Source: an uncultured Bacteroidales bacterium (GTDB lineage Bacteria > Bacteroidota > Bacteroidia > Bacteroidales > FEN-979). Taken from it: 49,708 nucleotides of DNA. The position numbers and the translations under genes were made by a program. The stretch is taken from assembly GCA_903916595.1 (NCBI GenBank), contig CAIWXI010000111.1, positions 1-49,708 on the forward strand, given 5' to 3'. Below, one piece after another: positions 30,589 through 45,478 of this stretch. The first letter of the stretch is position 1; every line of letters begins with the position of its first letter. The notes under the pieces are model-generated. The model saw only the letters and a program-made list of their open reading frames with translations. It ran no database searches and had not been told where the DNA came from.

Positions 30589-30629
30589 TCTTTCAATGTT
30601 TAATTTTTAATTCGGATATTCATTTCGCC

Positions 30630-30704
30630 ATTTCACCATTTATTCACGAATTGTCTATTTTATTTGTGTTCATTACGGCTTCGCCGAACACCAGTTCACC
30701 ATTT
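30630..30704 (-). repeat. 75-bp interspersed repeat, copy 1
   Basis: Read on the minus strand it starts within the vWA stop codon with AAATGGTGAACTGG, contains the hairpin GTGTTC...GAACAC with inner GGC-GAA-GCC, and ends AAATGGTGAAAT. It matches 44202-44276 on the plus strand over 75 bp with one mismatch (plus-strand base 30694). Octamer units ATGGTGAA occur at both ends. It fills most of the intergenic space before the transketolase C gene. Confidence 0.9.
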
Positions 30705-32136
30705 AATTCGCGTACATCTTCACATTGGTTGTCTGCCCTGATTCCACCTTGAACGACTTCTCCTCTGTATAGGAAGACGAGTTAGAATACTTGGGCCTGA
30801 ATACCACCCTGTAATTTCCCGGCTGAAGATATAGAGTTTCCTGCTGCTGCTGATTATCTTTCAGATTGTACAGCCAGGTGAGGCCTTTCTTTTCTTCGAT
30901 ATAAAGACTGCCGTATCCATTTGTCGCCCTTTGTATTACAGCAATACCCGGGGTAGGTATTTCAACAAAGGTGGTATGGCTTTGAGTAACATCAACGTCT
31001 TTTACTGTAATTCTGGGCATACATAGGATCTCAATGTCATATTTCCCGACAAGATACTTTTCGACCTGGTCAAACTGATGAACGTTCAGGGTCTGATTCT
31101 GGCCGGCTTTCCTGATAATGCAGGGGAGATACTTCAGGGTTGCATTTCCACTTGCTTTGAATGTAAGGTAACCCTGGGGTGCATCGATACCGACAACAGT
31201 ATGTTTGCCTGGAGTAAGTTTCACTGAATCTTTTCTCACCGGGGGTATAGTATGTACAACTACATCATATGAAACCAGCGGGTCAACATCGAGTGTATCA
31301 GGAAGGCCCTTCGCGTTAAGAGAGTGAATAAAATTGTATTTGATCAGCCCGCTCTTGTTGTCATAGAAGGTCATGGCTACATTTGTTTCGGTCGGATTAT
31401 GCTGCTGGTCGAGCAGATTCACCTGCATTGTAGTTGGGTTTAGTGTACGGCTGATGATGACTTTGAGGGCATTGGCAAATTCCTTTTCGTTGCTGGCATC
31501 AAAATACGTTCCAACGCAGTCGAACTGATCTTTGAAATTTTTACCGATCCCCACGATAAAAGGTTTCAGTGAAATCCCTTTTTCCTGGAGCTGGGCTGAT
31601 ACCGCACAGGGGTCGCCTCCACATTCCTCCAGGCCGTCGGTAATTAGAATTATTACGTTGCGGCAATGGTCACAGGGGGTGAAATCTTTTGCGGCAAGGG
31701 ATAGCGAATAGGCGATAGGTGTGGTTCCGCTGGGGCTGATGATTTTCAGCACATGCTTGATACGCGCAGTATTGTCCCTGGCAAAAGGGACTTCCAGCCT
31801 CGAATCGCTACAGTCCTGGGGAGGAAAAGGCTTCTGATGTCCATAAACCCTTAAAGCCAGTTCAAGGTCAGTGGTGTTCCGCAGGCTATCGAGCAGAGCT
31901 GAGAAAAGCCGGGTGGCAATATTGAATTTGGTATCGCTCTGCCATCTTCCGAACATACTCTGGGATGCATCAAACACGAAAAGGATACGCGTTACGGGTT
32001 TGGGTTTTTCAGGTTCCTTACGGGCTTGTCCATAAGCAGGAGCAATAAGAAAAAGCAATGATAAAAACAGTATCGGATGCCTTACTTTCCGATGCAGATA
32101 AATCAGGGTTGTATTTTTTATAACCTGGAACTTCAT
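30703..32136 (-). CDS. Secreted von Willebrand factor A domain protein
   Basis: 477 residues with a hydrophobic export signal after a long basic N-region (ILFLSLLFLIAPAYG). The vWA domain (about 45-235) has a complete MIDAS: DASQS, the Thr in SGTTPIAYS, and ITDGLEECGGD. The remaining 240 residues are beta-rich and end in NVKMYAN; no known enzymatic domain is seen. Likely periplasmic or outer-membrane-attached, binding a partner through Mg2+. It begins 8 nt after the transketolase N-subunit gene, so it is co-transcribed with a cytoplasmic enzyme although it is itself exported. Its stop is overlapped by the repeat. Confidence 0.83.
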   Translation of the reverse strand: MKFQVIKNTTLIYLHRKVRHPILFLSLLFLIAPAYGQARKEPEKPKPVTRILFVFDASQSMFGRWQSDTKFNIATRLFSALLDSLRNTTDLELALRVYGHQKPFPPQDCSDSRLEVPFARDNTARIKHVLKIISPSGTTPIAYSLSLAAKDFTPCDHCRNVIILITDGLEECGGDPCAVSAQLQEKGISLKPFIVGIGKNFKDQFDCVGTYFDASNEKEFANALKVIISRTLNPTTMQVNLLDQQHNPTETNVAMTFYDNKSGLIKYNFIHSLNAKGLPDTLDVDPLVSYDVVVHTIPPVRKDSVKLTPGKHTVVGIDAPQGYLTFKASGNATLKYLPCIIRKAGQNQTLNVHQFDQVEKYLVGKYDIEILCMPRITVKDVDVTQSHTTFVEIPTPGIAVIQRATNGYGSLYIEEKKGLTWLYNLKDNQQQQETLYLQPGNYRVVFRPKYSNSSSYTEEKSFKVESGQTTNVKMYAN

Positions 32137-36106: not shown

Positions 36107-36931
36107 ATGAAGAAATATCAATCCGTTTTAATTTGGGTATTTGCCTTTCTTTTTACTGCTGGCCTGGCTTATTACCAGAGGACGACAGGACCTACTTACC
36201 CTGTGCGCAGTCATATCGATATCGGATTAACGAAAGTTTCTTACAAACTGCCTCGTTCAGCAGATTGCGGTAAGGATATGCCGGTAAAGATCAACATAGC
36301 CGACACTTCTGTTCATGGCTCTTTTTCATACAGGCGGTATAAAAGCAATGATGAGTGGACTACTGTTCCAATGCTCCGCCAGGGCGATGAGCTAGTATCG
36401 ATGATACCCATGCAGCCCGCAGCCGGAAAAGTCTCTTATAAAATATATCTGATAAAGGATGGGAACCAATACCCCCTGGCCGACAATCATGATGTTGTGC
36501 TGAGGTTCAAAGGCAGTGTTCCCCTGATCGTGCTTATATTCCACATTATCGCGATATTCGGGGCTATGCTGCTTTCTACCGTTACCTGCCTGCAGACAAT
36601 TTTTAAAGGCAAGTATGTTTTGCGGTATATCTGGCTGACTGTAATATTTTTCTTTGCAGGAGGGCTGATACTGGGACCCATTGTGCAGAAATATGCCTTT
36701 GACGCTTATTGGACCGGATGGCCTTTTGGTCATGATCTTACCGACAACAAGACCTTTGTAGGCCTGGTATTCTGGGTCATCGCTCTGGTTGTTCAGTACA
36801 GGAAACCAGGTAACCGCTCATGGCCTGTTATTGCAGGTATCGTTTTCCTGGCCGTATTCCTTATCCCTCACAGCGCCTTTGGTTCAGAGATCGATTATAC
36901 AAAGCAGGCTCCGGCGGAGCAGGGAAAGTAA
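36107..36931 (+). CDS. Unrecognised membrane protein
   Basis: 274 residues. I do not recognise the family. One N-terminal helix (VLIWVFAFLFTAGLAYY), then a roughly 110-residue extracytoplasmic beta-rich domain (HIDIGLTKVSYKLPRSADCGKDMPV at its start), then four helices from about residue 143. A short conserved-looking loop GWPFGHDLTDNKT carries His and Asp near residues 205-217. Five helices in all, with no enzymatic motif. Flanked by the GH3 fusion gene and, in the opposite direction, the acyl-CoA synthetase; a heptamer repeat begins at its stop codon. Confidence 0.7.
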   Translation: MKKYQSVLIWVFAFLFTAGLAYYQRTTGPTYPVRSHIDIGLTKVSYKLPRSADCGKDMPVKINIADTSVHGSFSYRRYKSNDEWTTVPMLRQGDELVSMIPMQPAAGKVSYKIYLIKDGNQYPLADNHDVVLRFKGSVPLIVLIFHIIAIFGAMLLSTVTCLQTIFKGKYVLRYIWLTVIFFFAGGLILGPIVQKYAFDAYWTGWPFGHDLTDNKTFVGLVFWVIALVVQYRKPGNRSWPVIAGIVFLAVFLIPHSAFGSEIDYTKQAPAEQGK

Positions 36932-36984
36932 TATCAGATATCAGATATCTGATTGCGGATGGCGGATGGCGGATGGCGGATGGC
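36931..36984. repeat. Tandem heptamer arrays
   Basis: Two arrays with the same 7-nt period lie back to back: ATATCAG, ATATCAG, ATATCTG (36931-36951), then, after three bases, GCGGATG four times (36955-36982) and GC. A perfect 14-bp palindrome ATCAGATATCTGAT spans 36940-36953. The stretch fills the whole gap between two convergent genes, from stop codon to stop codon. Confidence 0.85.
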
Positions 36985-43020: not shown

Positions 43021-44196
43021 ATGCTGAACAAAATCAAACTTCATCTTATCTTAACTGTATTGATTTTATCTGTCTGCAATCTCCTTGCATACTCTCAGGT
43101 AAAACCTGCGGCTTATCAGACAGAAAAATATTTCAAAATATTGCATGGCAAGAAGATAGGTATTGTAGCCAATGCATCTTCTCTTATAGGAAAGGTGAAT
43201 ATCGTTGACACTCTGATCCATTCCGGTATTGATATCAAAGTAGTCTTCACGCCCGAACACGGATATAAGCTGCAGGAAGATGCCGGGCAGATGTCGACAG
43301 ACTACACCGATCCGGATTCAGGCTTGCGTATCATTTCGCTTTACGGTATAAAGAAGAAGCCCGCCGCCATGGACCTCGCGGGCCTCGACATGGTAGTATT
43401 CGACATACAGGATGCAGGCGCCAGGTTTTATACTTATTTAAGCACGTTAAGTCTGGTGATGGAAGCCTGTGCGGAAAGCAACATCCCCGTATTAGTTCTG
43501 GACAGGCCCAATCCTAACGCATTTTATATTGACGGGCCTGTTTTGGAAATGAAATACAAATCATTTGCAGGCATGCATCCTGTACCCGTAGTTTATGGCA
43601 TGACGATAGGAGAATATGCGAAAATGGTCAACGGTGAGGGATGGCTAAAAGGAGGAGTGAGCTGTGACCTCAGTGTACTCCCTATAGAAAATTACAACCA
43701 TCGGACAAGCTGGTTTCCCGAGGCCAAACCATCTCCTAACCTGCCTACTGCGAATTCCATCCTTTTATATCCTTCACTTTGTTTTTTCGAAGGCACGGTA
43801 ATCAGCGTGGGACGGGGTACATCCACACCCTTCGAGGTTTACGGCCATCCCGGCCTTCAGGGTTACAGTTACAGTTTTACTCCTGAGGCAATAAAAGGAA
43901 TGGATTCAAAGCCCATGTACAAGGGCAAAATTTGTTACGGAGAAAATCTGAACCAGTATTACAGTGAACATACGGCCGACAAGGGAAGGATTAATCTCTC
44001 GTGGCTTATCAGGGCATATACAGGTCTTGGGAGCAAGCCTGATTTCTTTAACCCGTATTTTGATCAGCTGGCAGGAACGGCGACATTGCAGCAGCAGATC
44101 ATGAAAGGCATGAAAGCTGAAGACATCAGAAACAGCTGGAAAGCCGGAATTGAGGCGTTTAATAAGATTAGGGAGAGGTACCTGTTGTATCCCTGA
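43021..44196 (+). CDS. DUF1343 / GH171 NamZ-like exo-beta-N-acetylmuramidase
   Basis: 391 residues with a signal peptide (ILTVLILSVCNLLAYS). Family motifs include GIVANASSL, VVFTPEHGYKLQEDAGQ, VFDIQDAGARFYTY, VLDRPNP and PSPNLPTANSILLYPSLCFFEGT. The GH171 member NamZ of Bacillus subtilis cleaves N-acetylmuramic acid from the non-reducing end of glycan chains; the same reaction in the periplasm is likely here. Full length. The 75-bp repeat begins right after its TGA. The GH3 NagZ-like fusion at 33139 could act on the same fragments. Confidence 0.9.
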   Translation: MLNKIKLHLILTVLILSVCNLLAYSQVKPAAYQTEKYFKILHGKKIGIVANASSLIGKVNIVDTLIHSGIDIKVVFTPEHGYKLQEDAGQMSTDYTDPDSGLRIISLYGIKKKPAAMDLAGLDMVVFDIQDAGARFYTYLSTLSLVMEACAESNIPVLVLDRPNPNAFYIDGPVLEMKYKSFAGMHPVPVVYGMTIGEYAKMVNGEGWLKGGVSCDLSVLPIENYNHRTSWFPEAKPSPNLPTANSILLYPSLCFFEGTVISVGRGTSTPFEVYGHPGLQGYSYSFTPEAIKGMDSKPMYKGKICYGENLNQYYSEHTADKGRINLSWLIRAYTGLGSKPDFFNPYFDQLAGTATLQQQIMKGMKAEDIRNSWKAGIEAFNKIRERYLLYP

Positions 44197-44201
44197 TGGT
44201 G

Positions 44202-44276
44202 AAATGGTGAAATGGTGTTCGGCGAAGCCGTAATGAACACAAATAAAATAGACAATTCGTGAATAAATGGTGAAAT
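44202..44276 (+). repeat. 75-bp interspersed repeat, copy 2
   Basis: Matches 30630-30704 in inverted orientation with one mismatch. Octamers ATGGTGAA run from the DUF1343 stop (44196-44217, almost three units), then the hairpin GTGTTC (44215-44220), GGC-GAA-GCC, GAACAC (44235-44240), then an AT-rich segment, then AAATGGTGAAAT. It fills the gap between two convergent genes. Confidence 0.9.
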
Positions 44277-44278
44277 CC

Positions 44279-45478
44279 CTAACCCCTAACCCCCGGATAT
44301 ACCTTAAGCGCTTCTTCGAGGCATTTCATAGATTCACGCAGATCGTTCACATTCAGCACATAGCTTATGCGCACCTCGTCGATACCACGGCCCTTTGTTG
44401 AATAAAAACCTGTTGCAGGCGCCAGCATCACCGTTTTACCCTCATAATTGAAGTCCTCAAGAAGCCACTGGCAGAATTTATCAGAATCATCGATAGGCAG
44501 TTTAGCCATGGCATAAAAAGCGCCTCCTGGATTCGGGCAATAGCATCCTTTCATTTTATTTATAGATTCTACAACCAAATTACGGCGCTGCAGGTATTCG
44601 TCGAGCACATGGATCATATATGAAGGCGGTGTGTTGATCGCTTCTTCGCCAACGATTTGACCGAAGGTTGGAGGGCTAAGCCTGGCCTGGGCAAATTTCA
44701 TTGCTGTGGAAATGACTTCCTTGTTTTTCGAGATCATCACTCCTATCCTTGCTCCACAGGCGCTATAACGTTTTGAAATAGAGTCAAGCAGCACCACGTT
44801 CTGCTCAATTCCTTTCAGGTTCATCACCGAATAATGCTCTTTCCCGTCATAAACGAATTCACGGTAAACCTCATCAGCAAACAAAAAAAGATCGTGCTTC
44901 AGAACGATTTCCTTCAGCAGCTCAAGTTCCTCCCTCGAGTATAAATATCCGGTGGGGTTATTCGGGTTGCAGACCATGATCGCTTTGGTCTTAGGCGTAA
45001 TAGCCTGTTCAAAAGCGGGTATTGGTGGCAATGCGAAACCGCTTTCAATAAAGGAATCTATCGGCTTTACAGTAACGCCTGCTGCAACCGAGAAACCATT
45101 ATAATTTGCATAAAACGGTTCGGGGATGATGATTTCATCGCCAGGATTCATACATGAGAACATGGCAAACATAATAGCTTCGCTGCCGCCTGTAGTCACG
45201 ATCATTTCTTCGGGCTTAACCACAATCCCGCAACTGAGATAATATTCGGCCAGTTTCTTCCTGTATGATGGCATTCCGGCGGAATGGCTGTACTCAATCA
45301 CTTTAAGGTCGATATTCCTGATCTTATCCATCACATTTTCAGGAGTGGGGATATCAGGCTGCCCTATATTGAGGTGATATACTTTAATTCCTCTTTTTTT
45401 TGCTTCATCAGAGAACGGAACGAGTTTCCGTATGGGAGAGGGAGGACAAACCTGCCCTCTTGTCGAGATAGTTGGCAT
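44279..45478 (-). CDS. PLP-dependent aminotransferase, class I
   Basis: 399 residues of fold type I. Seen: KVYHLNIGQPDIPTP at the N-terminus, the cofactor-contacting NPNNPTG, FADEVYREFVYDG, and the PLP Lys in DSISKRYSACGARIG. Resembles aspartate aminotransferases of the AspC/AAT subgroup; donor and acceptor specificity cannot be fixed from sequence. Cytoplasmic. Convergent with DUF1343 across the 75-bp repeat. Confidence 0.92.
   Translation of the reverse strand: MPTISTRGQVCPPSPIRKLVPFSDEAKKRGIKVYHLNIGQPDIPTPENVMDKIRNIDLKVIEYSHSAGMPSYRKKLAEYYLSCGIVVKPEEMIVTTGGSEAIMFAMFSCMNPGDEIIIPEPFYANYNGFSVAAGVTVKPIDSFIESGFALPPIPAFEQAITPKTKAIMVCNPNNPTGYLYSREELELLKEIVLKHDLFLFADEVYREFVYDGKEHYSVMNLKGIEQNVVLLDSISKRYSACGARIGVMISKNKEVISTAMKFAQARLSPPTFGQIVGEEAINTPPSYMIHVLDEYLQRRNLVVESINKMKGCYCPNPGGAFYAMAKLPIDDSDKFCQWLLEDFNYEGKTVMLAPATGFYSTKGRGIDEVRISYVLNVNDLRESMKCLEEALKVYPGVRG

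Follow-up and report, generated by a model that had tools for sequence, protein, structure and literature searches.

To our knowledge, mobile hairpins of about 50 nt are among the smallest mobile DNA. The SDRs of the cyanobacterium Nostoc, tiny mobile repeats of 21-27 nt, were reportedly found inside short tandem word arrays by Elhai in 2008. IS200/IS605 elements with Y1 transposases insert 3' of a short fixed target, create no long duplication and have hairpin ends. The order Bacteroidales includes the species Porphyromonas gingivalis. One genome of P. gingivalis contains 19 copies of the BrickBuilt MITE, an intergenic, tandem-repeat-linked element with a 23-nt minisatellite and inverted-repeat ends (PMC4596501). 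REP sequences are small hairpin repeats that occur in many copies, mostly downstream of genes and in some cases within them, and CGTC repeats have been reported in Bacteroidetes (both from PMC3733652). Rickettsia palindromic elements (RPEs), as portrayed in PMC10969869, are short mobile palindromes of about 150 bp, which may also be inserted in-frame in protein genes. Direct repeats of the heptamer TAACTGA are found in Beggiatoaceae, Cyanobacteria and Bacteroidetes, where they are intergenic and in some cases absent from close relatives (PMC4679880). Finally, Y1 proteins of subclass 1.2 are present in Cyanobacteria and Bacteroidetes at low copy number and generally without terminal IS200 structures, and the class 2 subclasses possess an NP form of the tyrosine motif (PMC6006769).

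The window analysed here is a stretch of 49,708 nt, contig C111 of a 3.79-Mb, 166-contig genome from an uncultured Bacteroidales bacterium. A sequence-only reading had noticed two copies of a 75-bp repeat, and these copies are real: positions 30630-30704 (minus strand) and 44202-44276 (plus strand) are 99% identical over 75 nt. The 75-bp unit itself was not borne out. It consists of a core of about 52 nt plus flanking octamers (AATGGTGA)n, which also match alone elsewhere. A blast search of the genome with the 75-mer yielded at least 70 matches (the best 40 of 200 candidates were scored), 42 of which were octamer-only (query 1-23). Since the genome matches split into core places and octamer-only ones, the 75-mer has to be regarded as composite, with the 52-nt core as its dispersed unit. 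Both copies directly follow a stop codon, as had been claimed, namely that of a vWA gene (30703-32136) upstream of copy 1 and that of a NamZ-type gene (43021-44196) upstream of copy 2; the NamZ_N domain is presumably the former DUF1343. The further claim that each copy begins at the stop codon needs correction, since the 75-mer of copy 2 begins 5 nt past the TGA, and only the octamer array has its start at the stop codon. The features of the two copies are as follows.

44215-44266, plus strand: core of copy 2, 52 nt, positions 1-56 of the R1 model, among 17 identical cores of the genome
30640-30691, minus strand: core of copy 1, 52 nt
44218-44233, plus strand: helix 1 of the core, covarying hairpin TTCGGC-GAA-GCCG(T)AA
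44234-44266, plus strand: conserved 3' half according to the alignments, with TGAACAC, an A-rich stretch and the right end CGTGAATAA
44196-44217, plus strand: octamer array ATGGTGAA x2.8, the host array of the element, from the NamZ-type stop codon
44267-44276, plus strand: octamer resuming to the right of the core, copy 2
30692-30704, minus strand: octamer-like unit between the core and the vWA stop codon, copy 1
30621-30641, minus strand: octamer array to the right of copy 1, period 8, reading CATTTCAC on the plus strand
44277-44293, plus strand: a second array, of the unrelated heptamer CCCTAAC, sharing the gap with copy 2

Across its copies the element measures about 48-56 nt and comprises a hairpin on the 5' side whose arms vary and largely retain their pairing, in most cases with a GAA loop, and a conserved 3' half with GTGAATAA, GTGAGTAA or GCGAATAA at its end; the right end GGTGCGAATAA may resemble the XerC arm of dif. 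In an alignment of 57 sequences, 91.4% of the pairing cells pair. The covariation score is 0.355, compared to 0.123 on average after shuffling and no more than 0.048 when the partners are slid, and 62 cells changed on both sides versus 18.6 after shuffling, where the counts represent sequences and not independent events. Changes on both sides affect 5 of 9 pairs versus 4.3 in shuffled alignments (a value reached by 171 of 500 shuffles), and 14 further pair types compare with 11.6 (reached by 21 of 500). One hairpin pair is realized as CG in 37 sequences, UA in 9, AU in 4, GC in 3, GU and UG in one each and unpaired in 2, and one pair of helix 2 is GC in 38 and AU in 19 sequences with no exception. 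Unpaired positions occur at the base of helix 1 in 20/57 sequences and at the third pair of helix 2 in 16/57. An alternative helix 2 fits some sequences by eye and was rejected; it pairs 56.8% of cells versus 90.1% for the chosen one.

The hairpin GTGTTC...GAACAC, which the sequence-only reading had recognized, is also predicted by folding: the window core is predicted to form this longer hairpin (RNA z -1.82), and helix 1 of copy 2, folded alone, would extend to 44215-44240. An A-type copy alone is predicted to fold into both modelled hairpins (z -2.89 as RNA, -3.19 as DNA), while the octamer-plus-core stretch has a z of 0.10, i.e., a predicted fold no better than shuffles. Among relatives, the predicted fold of L237 reaches z -2.21, and that of L338 (z -0.82) is no better than many shuffles. 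Pairing between the two ends of the element is absent from every computed fold, and terminal inverted repeats of 15-30 bp, as in MITEs, were not found.

Searching the whole genome for further copies, a check proposed along with the original observation, revealed at least 26 cores and thus more than the two in the window. These places carry the core GTGTTCGGCGAAGCCGTAATGAACAC...CGTGAATAA or a diverged form of it, as judged by blast and a covariance model; the pattern TTCGGCGAAGCCG occurs 24 times in the genome, compared to 0 occurrences of a reversed control. Identical cores account for 17 of the 26 and a second form is common to 4, which therefore indicates recent amplification. A place on contig C105 (L026, G000:C105:18592-18644) has the hairpin part only, and octamers, hairpin and reverse octamers form one palindrome without the 3' half. 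The R1 model, built from an alignment of 46 genus cores that share the 5' hairpin and the conserved 3' half, matched in 8/8 genus genomes. With the best 150 candidates scored per genome and all genome counts being lower bounds, it gave at least 26, 5, 4, 13, 37, 11, 16 and 49 matches, respectively, or at least 161 in total, of which the 150 listed were analysed for placement and site sharing.

Beyond the genus, weaker relatives are present in other genera of the family (e.g., GAATTGC-GAA-GCAATCACGAACACC...GTGAGTAA), and the alignments contain the conserved 3' half there as well. R2, a covariance model derived from the joint alignment of the 57 sequences, found matches in 23/43 family genomes (22/43 after dropping G063) and, at E<=1e-4 per genome, in 41/393 genomes and 32/206 genera of the order (40/393 genomes and 31 genera without G350); the E-values of the model are rough and the order-wide counts are lower bounds. 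G063 (family) and G350 (order) were left out of these counts, as their matching contigs proved 99.5-100% identical to G002 contigs; a transfer of the element to these two genomes was rejected, as the contigs are cross-binned. Cross-binning in public MAGs thus affects L149 in G063 as well as L196 and L197 in G350, all 99.5-100% identical to G002. By visual inspection, 28 order-wide loci mostly comprise hairpin and 3' half, with the exceptions of L229, which is devoid of a GAA-loop hairpin, and L235 and L240, the hairpins of which are imperfect. Named records with one exact pattern amounted to six contigs from three uncultured Bacteroidales MAGs. Carriage by plasmids or phages was considered and rejected, since blastn with one A-type core gave 0 matches in either collection; a single viral contig matched a 20-letter pattern and lacks the 3' half. 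No Rfam family matched the window at gathering scores or, at E<=1, the surroundings of copy 2; a literature search by letters retrieved only an 11-letter string in unrelated work among the matches listed, and neither the RNA-family library nor the literature searched yielded a description of the element family.

The sites of the element are mostly lineage-specific. The 3' site of the NamZ-type gene contains the element in 0/7 relatives, six of which have another word array and one of which (G007) is almost gapless, and the site upstream of the transketolase gene contains a copy in only one of 7 relatives (G002), of another subtype and among other words. In the window genome, 4/26 copies have a same-site partner by both flanks and one more by a single flank, among the copies listed. 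Across the genus, 49/150 copies share at least one flank with another genus genome and 101/150 share none, again among the copies listed. The mean core identity within 17 of the 20 both-flank pairs is 0.83, compared to 0.76 for random between-genome pairs, and therefore some sites were inherited and others look reused. The NamZ-type 3' gaps themselves (L163-L170) document a fast turnover of intergenic sequence: 7/8 hold different arrays of 7- or 8-mers (ATGGTGAA, GATGTAC, TTTCGCT, TTACGAT, GGGGACT, CGTGACT, GCAGTTT), and G007 has almost no gap. Elsewhere in the window, heptamer words (units of ATATCAG and GATGGCG) occupy the entire distance between the two stop codons of a convergent gene pair (36931-36984).

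Placement relative to genes was determined for the 150 genus copies with gene calls from a codon-usage script. The element lies outside gene calls in 142/150 cases and overlaps a gene call by at least 26 nt in the other 8. Among 134 intergenic copies with both neighbours called, 74 are co-directional in sense, 30 antisense, 15 convergent and 15 divergent, and the sense bias of 74 versus 30 in co-directional gaps has a two-sided binomial probability of 1.9e-5. Copies with an upstream sense gene (89) start at a median of 16 nt past the stop, 62/89 within 30 nt, and the 89 copies with a downstream sense gene end at a median of 63 nt before the start. In the window genome, the 23 copies with both neighbours called divide into 12 sense, 7 antisense, 3 convergent and 1 divergent. 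The window comprises 25 gaps of at least 20 nt (17 tandem, 5 divergent, 3 convergent), and therefore divergent gaps are open to the element as well. Hence, the proposed placement at gene 3' ends and in gene sense holds as a preference over 150 copies, not as a strict rule. Neither of the situations envisaged as fatal to the idea of a dispersed family, two copies only or a placement regardless of genes, was encountered; at least 26 copies exist, with a preference for 3' ends and the sense orientation.

Outside the genus, the element is also found within introns and genes. In genomes of three families (L151, L229, L235) it resides inside a group II intron domain at one identical position, with scores of 42.9, 37.1 and 48.9 bits, respectively, for Rfam group-II-D1D4-3 (gathering score 32). 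The same site is empty in plasmid introns of Persicobacter, Tenacibaculum and Adhaeribacter, where both sides align; these are 3 of the 8 plasmid records with a match, and the claim of an empty site applies to introns. We suspected that the element is itself a fragment of a group II intron, since the RT-side reading frame of L151 has its start within the 3' half. This candidate was dropped, as Rfam puts the element inside the intron model and the plasmid relatives are without it. The RT gene of L151 is apparently interrupted, and its upstream piece scores 86.8 bits with group_II_RT_mat, for which the whole-protein cut-off is 300. Rhs genes are apparently interrupted in L237-L239; in L237, the one examined by profile, the frame past the element aligns with Rhs_assc_core, starting at model position 12 (76.7 bits). 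An unnamed gene is apparently interrupted in L157, and the insertions in L157 and L151 shift or stop the frame. The single in-frame case is L222, where 48 nt form 16 in-frame codons in a Reg_prop propeller gene. For the six gene insertions the break was read from the protein, and empty relatives were compared for introns only. The trinucleotide GAA precedes the inserted 48-53 nt in 9/9 placed intron and gene insertions, the boundaries of which were set by hand at GAA, and there is no target duplication beyond a possible AA; these boundaries slide by 2 nt because AA is present in both the element ends and the targets.

In the genus, the element is closely associated with word arrays. A tandem array of 6-9 nt words is present within 60 nt on at least one side of 96/148 copies and on both sides of 24, compared to 49/1000 random 60-mers, and the array word often resumes on the other side of the core. 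Tandem core copies occur in L058, L107 and L332, and in the latter (G111) copies of the element follow one another head to tail as a tandem array. Unlike in the intron and gene insertions, the genus core is not directly preceded by GAA: the nearest GAA lies 4 or 5 nt upstream in 86/149 copies, and none is found within 12 nt in 39/149. The genus flanks show a perfect 4-nt match in 50/149 copies and a mean match of 2.84 versus 2.04 in flanks shuffled between loci, a procedure that does not keep word families, with no excess at 6 or 8 nt. With other boundaries, applied to 118 flank-distinct copies ending in AATAA, the repeats comprise 4-5 nt, or 6-7 nt counting the terminal AA. One reading is that the cut takes place at the GAA of the preceding array word and that part of the word travels with the core; alternatively, the 4-5 nt flank repeats, which look like target duplications, are true ones. 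By eye, some relatives (L098, L099, L175, L178) also contain a second, larger family of palindromic repeats, GCGAAGCATTTTGC...GATGCGAGCGAA and similar forms, and in L098 and L099 the small element seemingly lies inside the larger one.

Each of the 8/8 genus genomes encodes exactly one match to Y1_Tnp, in an apparently conserved locus 84-87% identical to that of the window genome. The protein carries the motifs DHIH and YILSQERLH, close to the signature of subclass 1.2 as given in PMC6006769. It scores 45.3 bits with the NCBIfam IS200 transposase model (cut-off 55) and 25.7 bits with REP_Tyr_transpos/RAYT (cut-off 80). No element was detected in the Y1 loci (about 3.3 kb, 8/8 genomes) by exact motifs or by R2 at E<=0.1. 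Accordingly, the linked RAYT that the initial observation had proposed to look for was not found; the one Y1 gene of the genome is without the element in its 3.3-kb locus. The co-occurrence of gene and element in 8/8 genomes suggests this IS200-like, single-copy Y1 gene as a candidate mobiliser.

The element resembles REPs as a short palindromic repeat with many copies that are mostly intergenic (142/150 outside gene calls in the genus), and differs from REP/RAYT systems by a long conserved 3' half and by having neither a constant tag nor a linked RAYT. With RPEs it shares an in-frame coding insertion (one case, L222), yet, compared by description only, it is about 50 nt long, mostly intergenic in the genus and found in Bacteroidales. 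The likeness to SDRs, again compared by description only, is that of a tiny repeat in word arrays, although SDRs are 21-27 nt long and cyanobacterial. The TAACTGA repeats (PMC4679880) are likewise intergenic heptamer arrays, but with another word and no hairpin element; BrickBuilt (PMC4596501) is likewise an intergenic, mobile-type element tied to tandem repeats, but with a 23-nt minisatellite and inverted-repeat ends. Finally, insertion 3' of a short fixed target without a long duplication is reminiscent of IS200/IS605, as are the hairpin ends, yet the element is devoid of a transposase gene, and the single Y1 gene found in the genus is most like subclass 1.2 (PMC6006769). The element thus behaves like REPs and RPEs, but it lacks the tag and the flanking RAYT of REP/RAYT systems as well as the terminal inverted repeats of MITEs.

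We conclude that the element is probably a very small, non-autonomous mobile DNA element of the Bacteroidales, similar to REPs and RPEs in its behaviour. The earlier proposal of a dispersed, REP- or MITE-like family is upheld by at least 26 copies, mostly lineage-specific sites and the copies inside introns and genes of relatives. A trans-acting enzyme would recognize both the hairpin and the conserved half, probably in single-stranded form, cut next to GAA and reinsert the unit 3' of another GAA, like IS200/IS605-type Y1 transposases. The bias for 3' ends and gene sense would then depend on which sites are tolerated and which strand is exposed, and some copies might be used afterwards as RNA hairpins. 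A different account, in which an RNA element at transcript 3' ends (a stabiliser, processing or attenuation hairpin) was spread and kept by selection, would explain the gene-sense preference (74 versus 30), the median distance of 16 nt from the upstream stop with 62/89 copies within 30 nt, and the compensatory changes in the hairpin. We nevertheless regard it as unlikely, and the RNA 3'-end role contemplated in the sequence-only reading fails as the main explanation: no terminator-like site (GC hairpin plus T-run) is present at either window element, although two lie elsewhere in the second stretch searched; 30 copies are antisense and 15 divergent; 22/26 genome copies are without a both-flank same-site copy in the genus among the copies listed; copies occur inside introns and genes of relatives; and the octamer-plus-core stretch is predicted to fold no better than shuffles (z 0.10). 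An intrinsic terminator in particular was rejected, as no T-run follows the hairpin at either element. A role at transcript ends is possible as a secondary one.

The abundance of word arrays (within 60 nt in 96/148 copies, on both sides in 24, versus 49/1000 random 60-mers), the words resuming across the core and the tandem cores in L058, L107 and L332 would also be expected of a passive passenger, a core spread by slippage and recombination between word arrays without a dedicated recombinase. This scenario appears improbable to us, because the insertions in introns and genes do not lie in word arrays, and the 3' half and right end have stayed conserved across matches from 40 order genomes. 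Still less probable is a REP of the classical type, moved by a RAYT of its own. In size, hairpin, dispersal, preference for gene ends and in-gene copies the element would agree with the REPs described in PMC3733652, and the Y1 protein weakly matches REP_Tyr_transpos (25.7 bits, cut-off 80). Yet, the left flanks of the copies vary (TAGC, TTAC, AAGC, TATC, TGGT and others) and display no constant GTAG or CGTC tag, the Y1 loci are free of the element in 8/8 genomes, and the tyrosine motif of the Y1 protein reads YILSQ rather than the NP form of the class 2 subclasses (PMC6006769).

Returning to the mobile element, a more far-reaching and rather unlikely extension is that it represents the missing mobile partner of the orphan, single-copy and vertically kept Y1 (HUH) proteins of Bacteroidota, which are subclass 1.2-like. 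One domesticated gene would then mobilise a 50-nt hairpin order-wide by cutting after GAA, and the word arrays, many words of which contain GAA, might be footprints of the same cut-and-rejoin activity.

The element adds a family of mobile hairpins of about 50 nt, distributed across an order of abundant, little-studied bacteria. Filled and empty sites, an apparently fixed GAA target and a single-copy candidate enzyme are at hand, and therefore the long-standing question of how elements of this size are mobilised is open to direct testing. Moreover, the element links the hairpins at gene ends to the fast-changing word arrays of these genomes.
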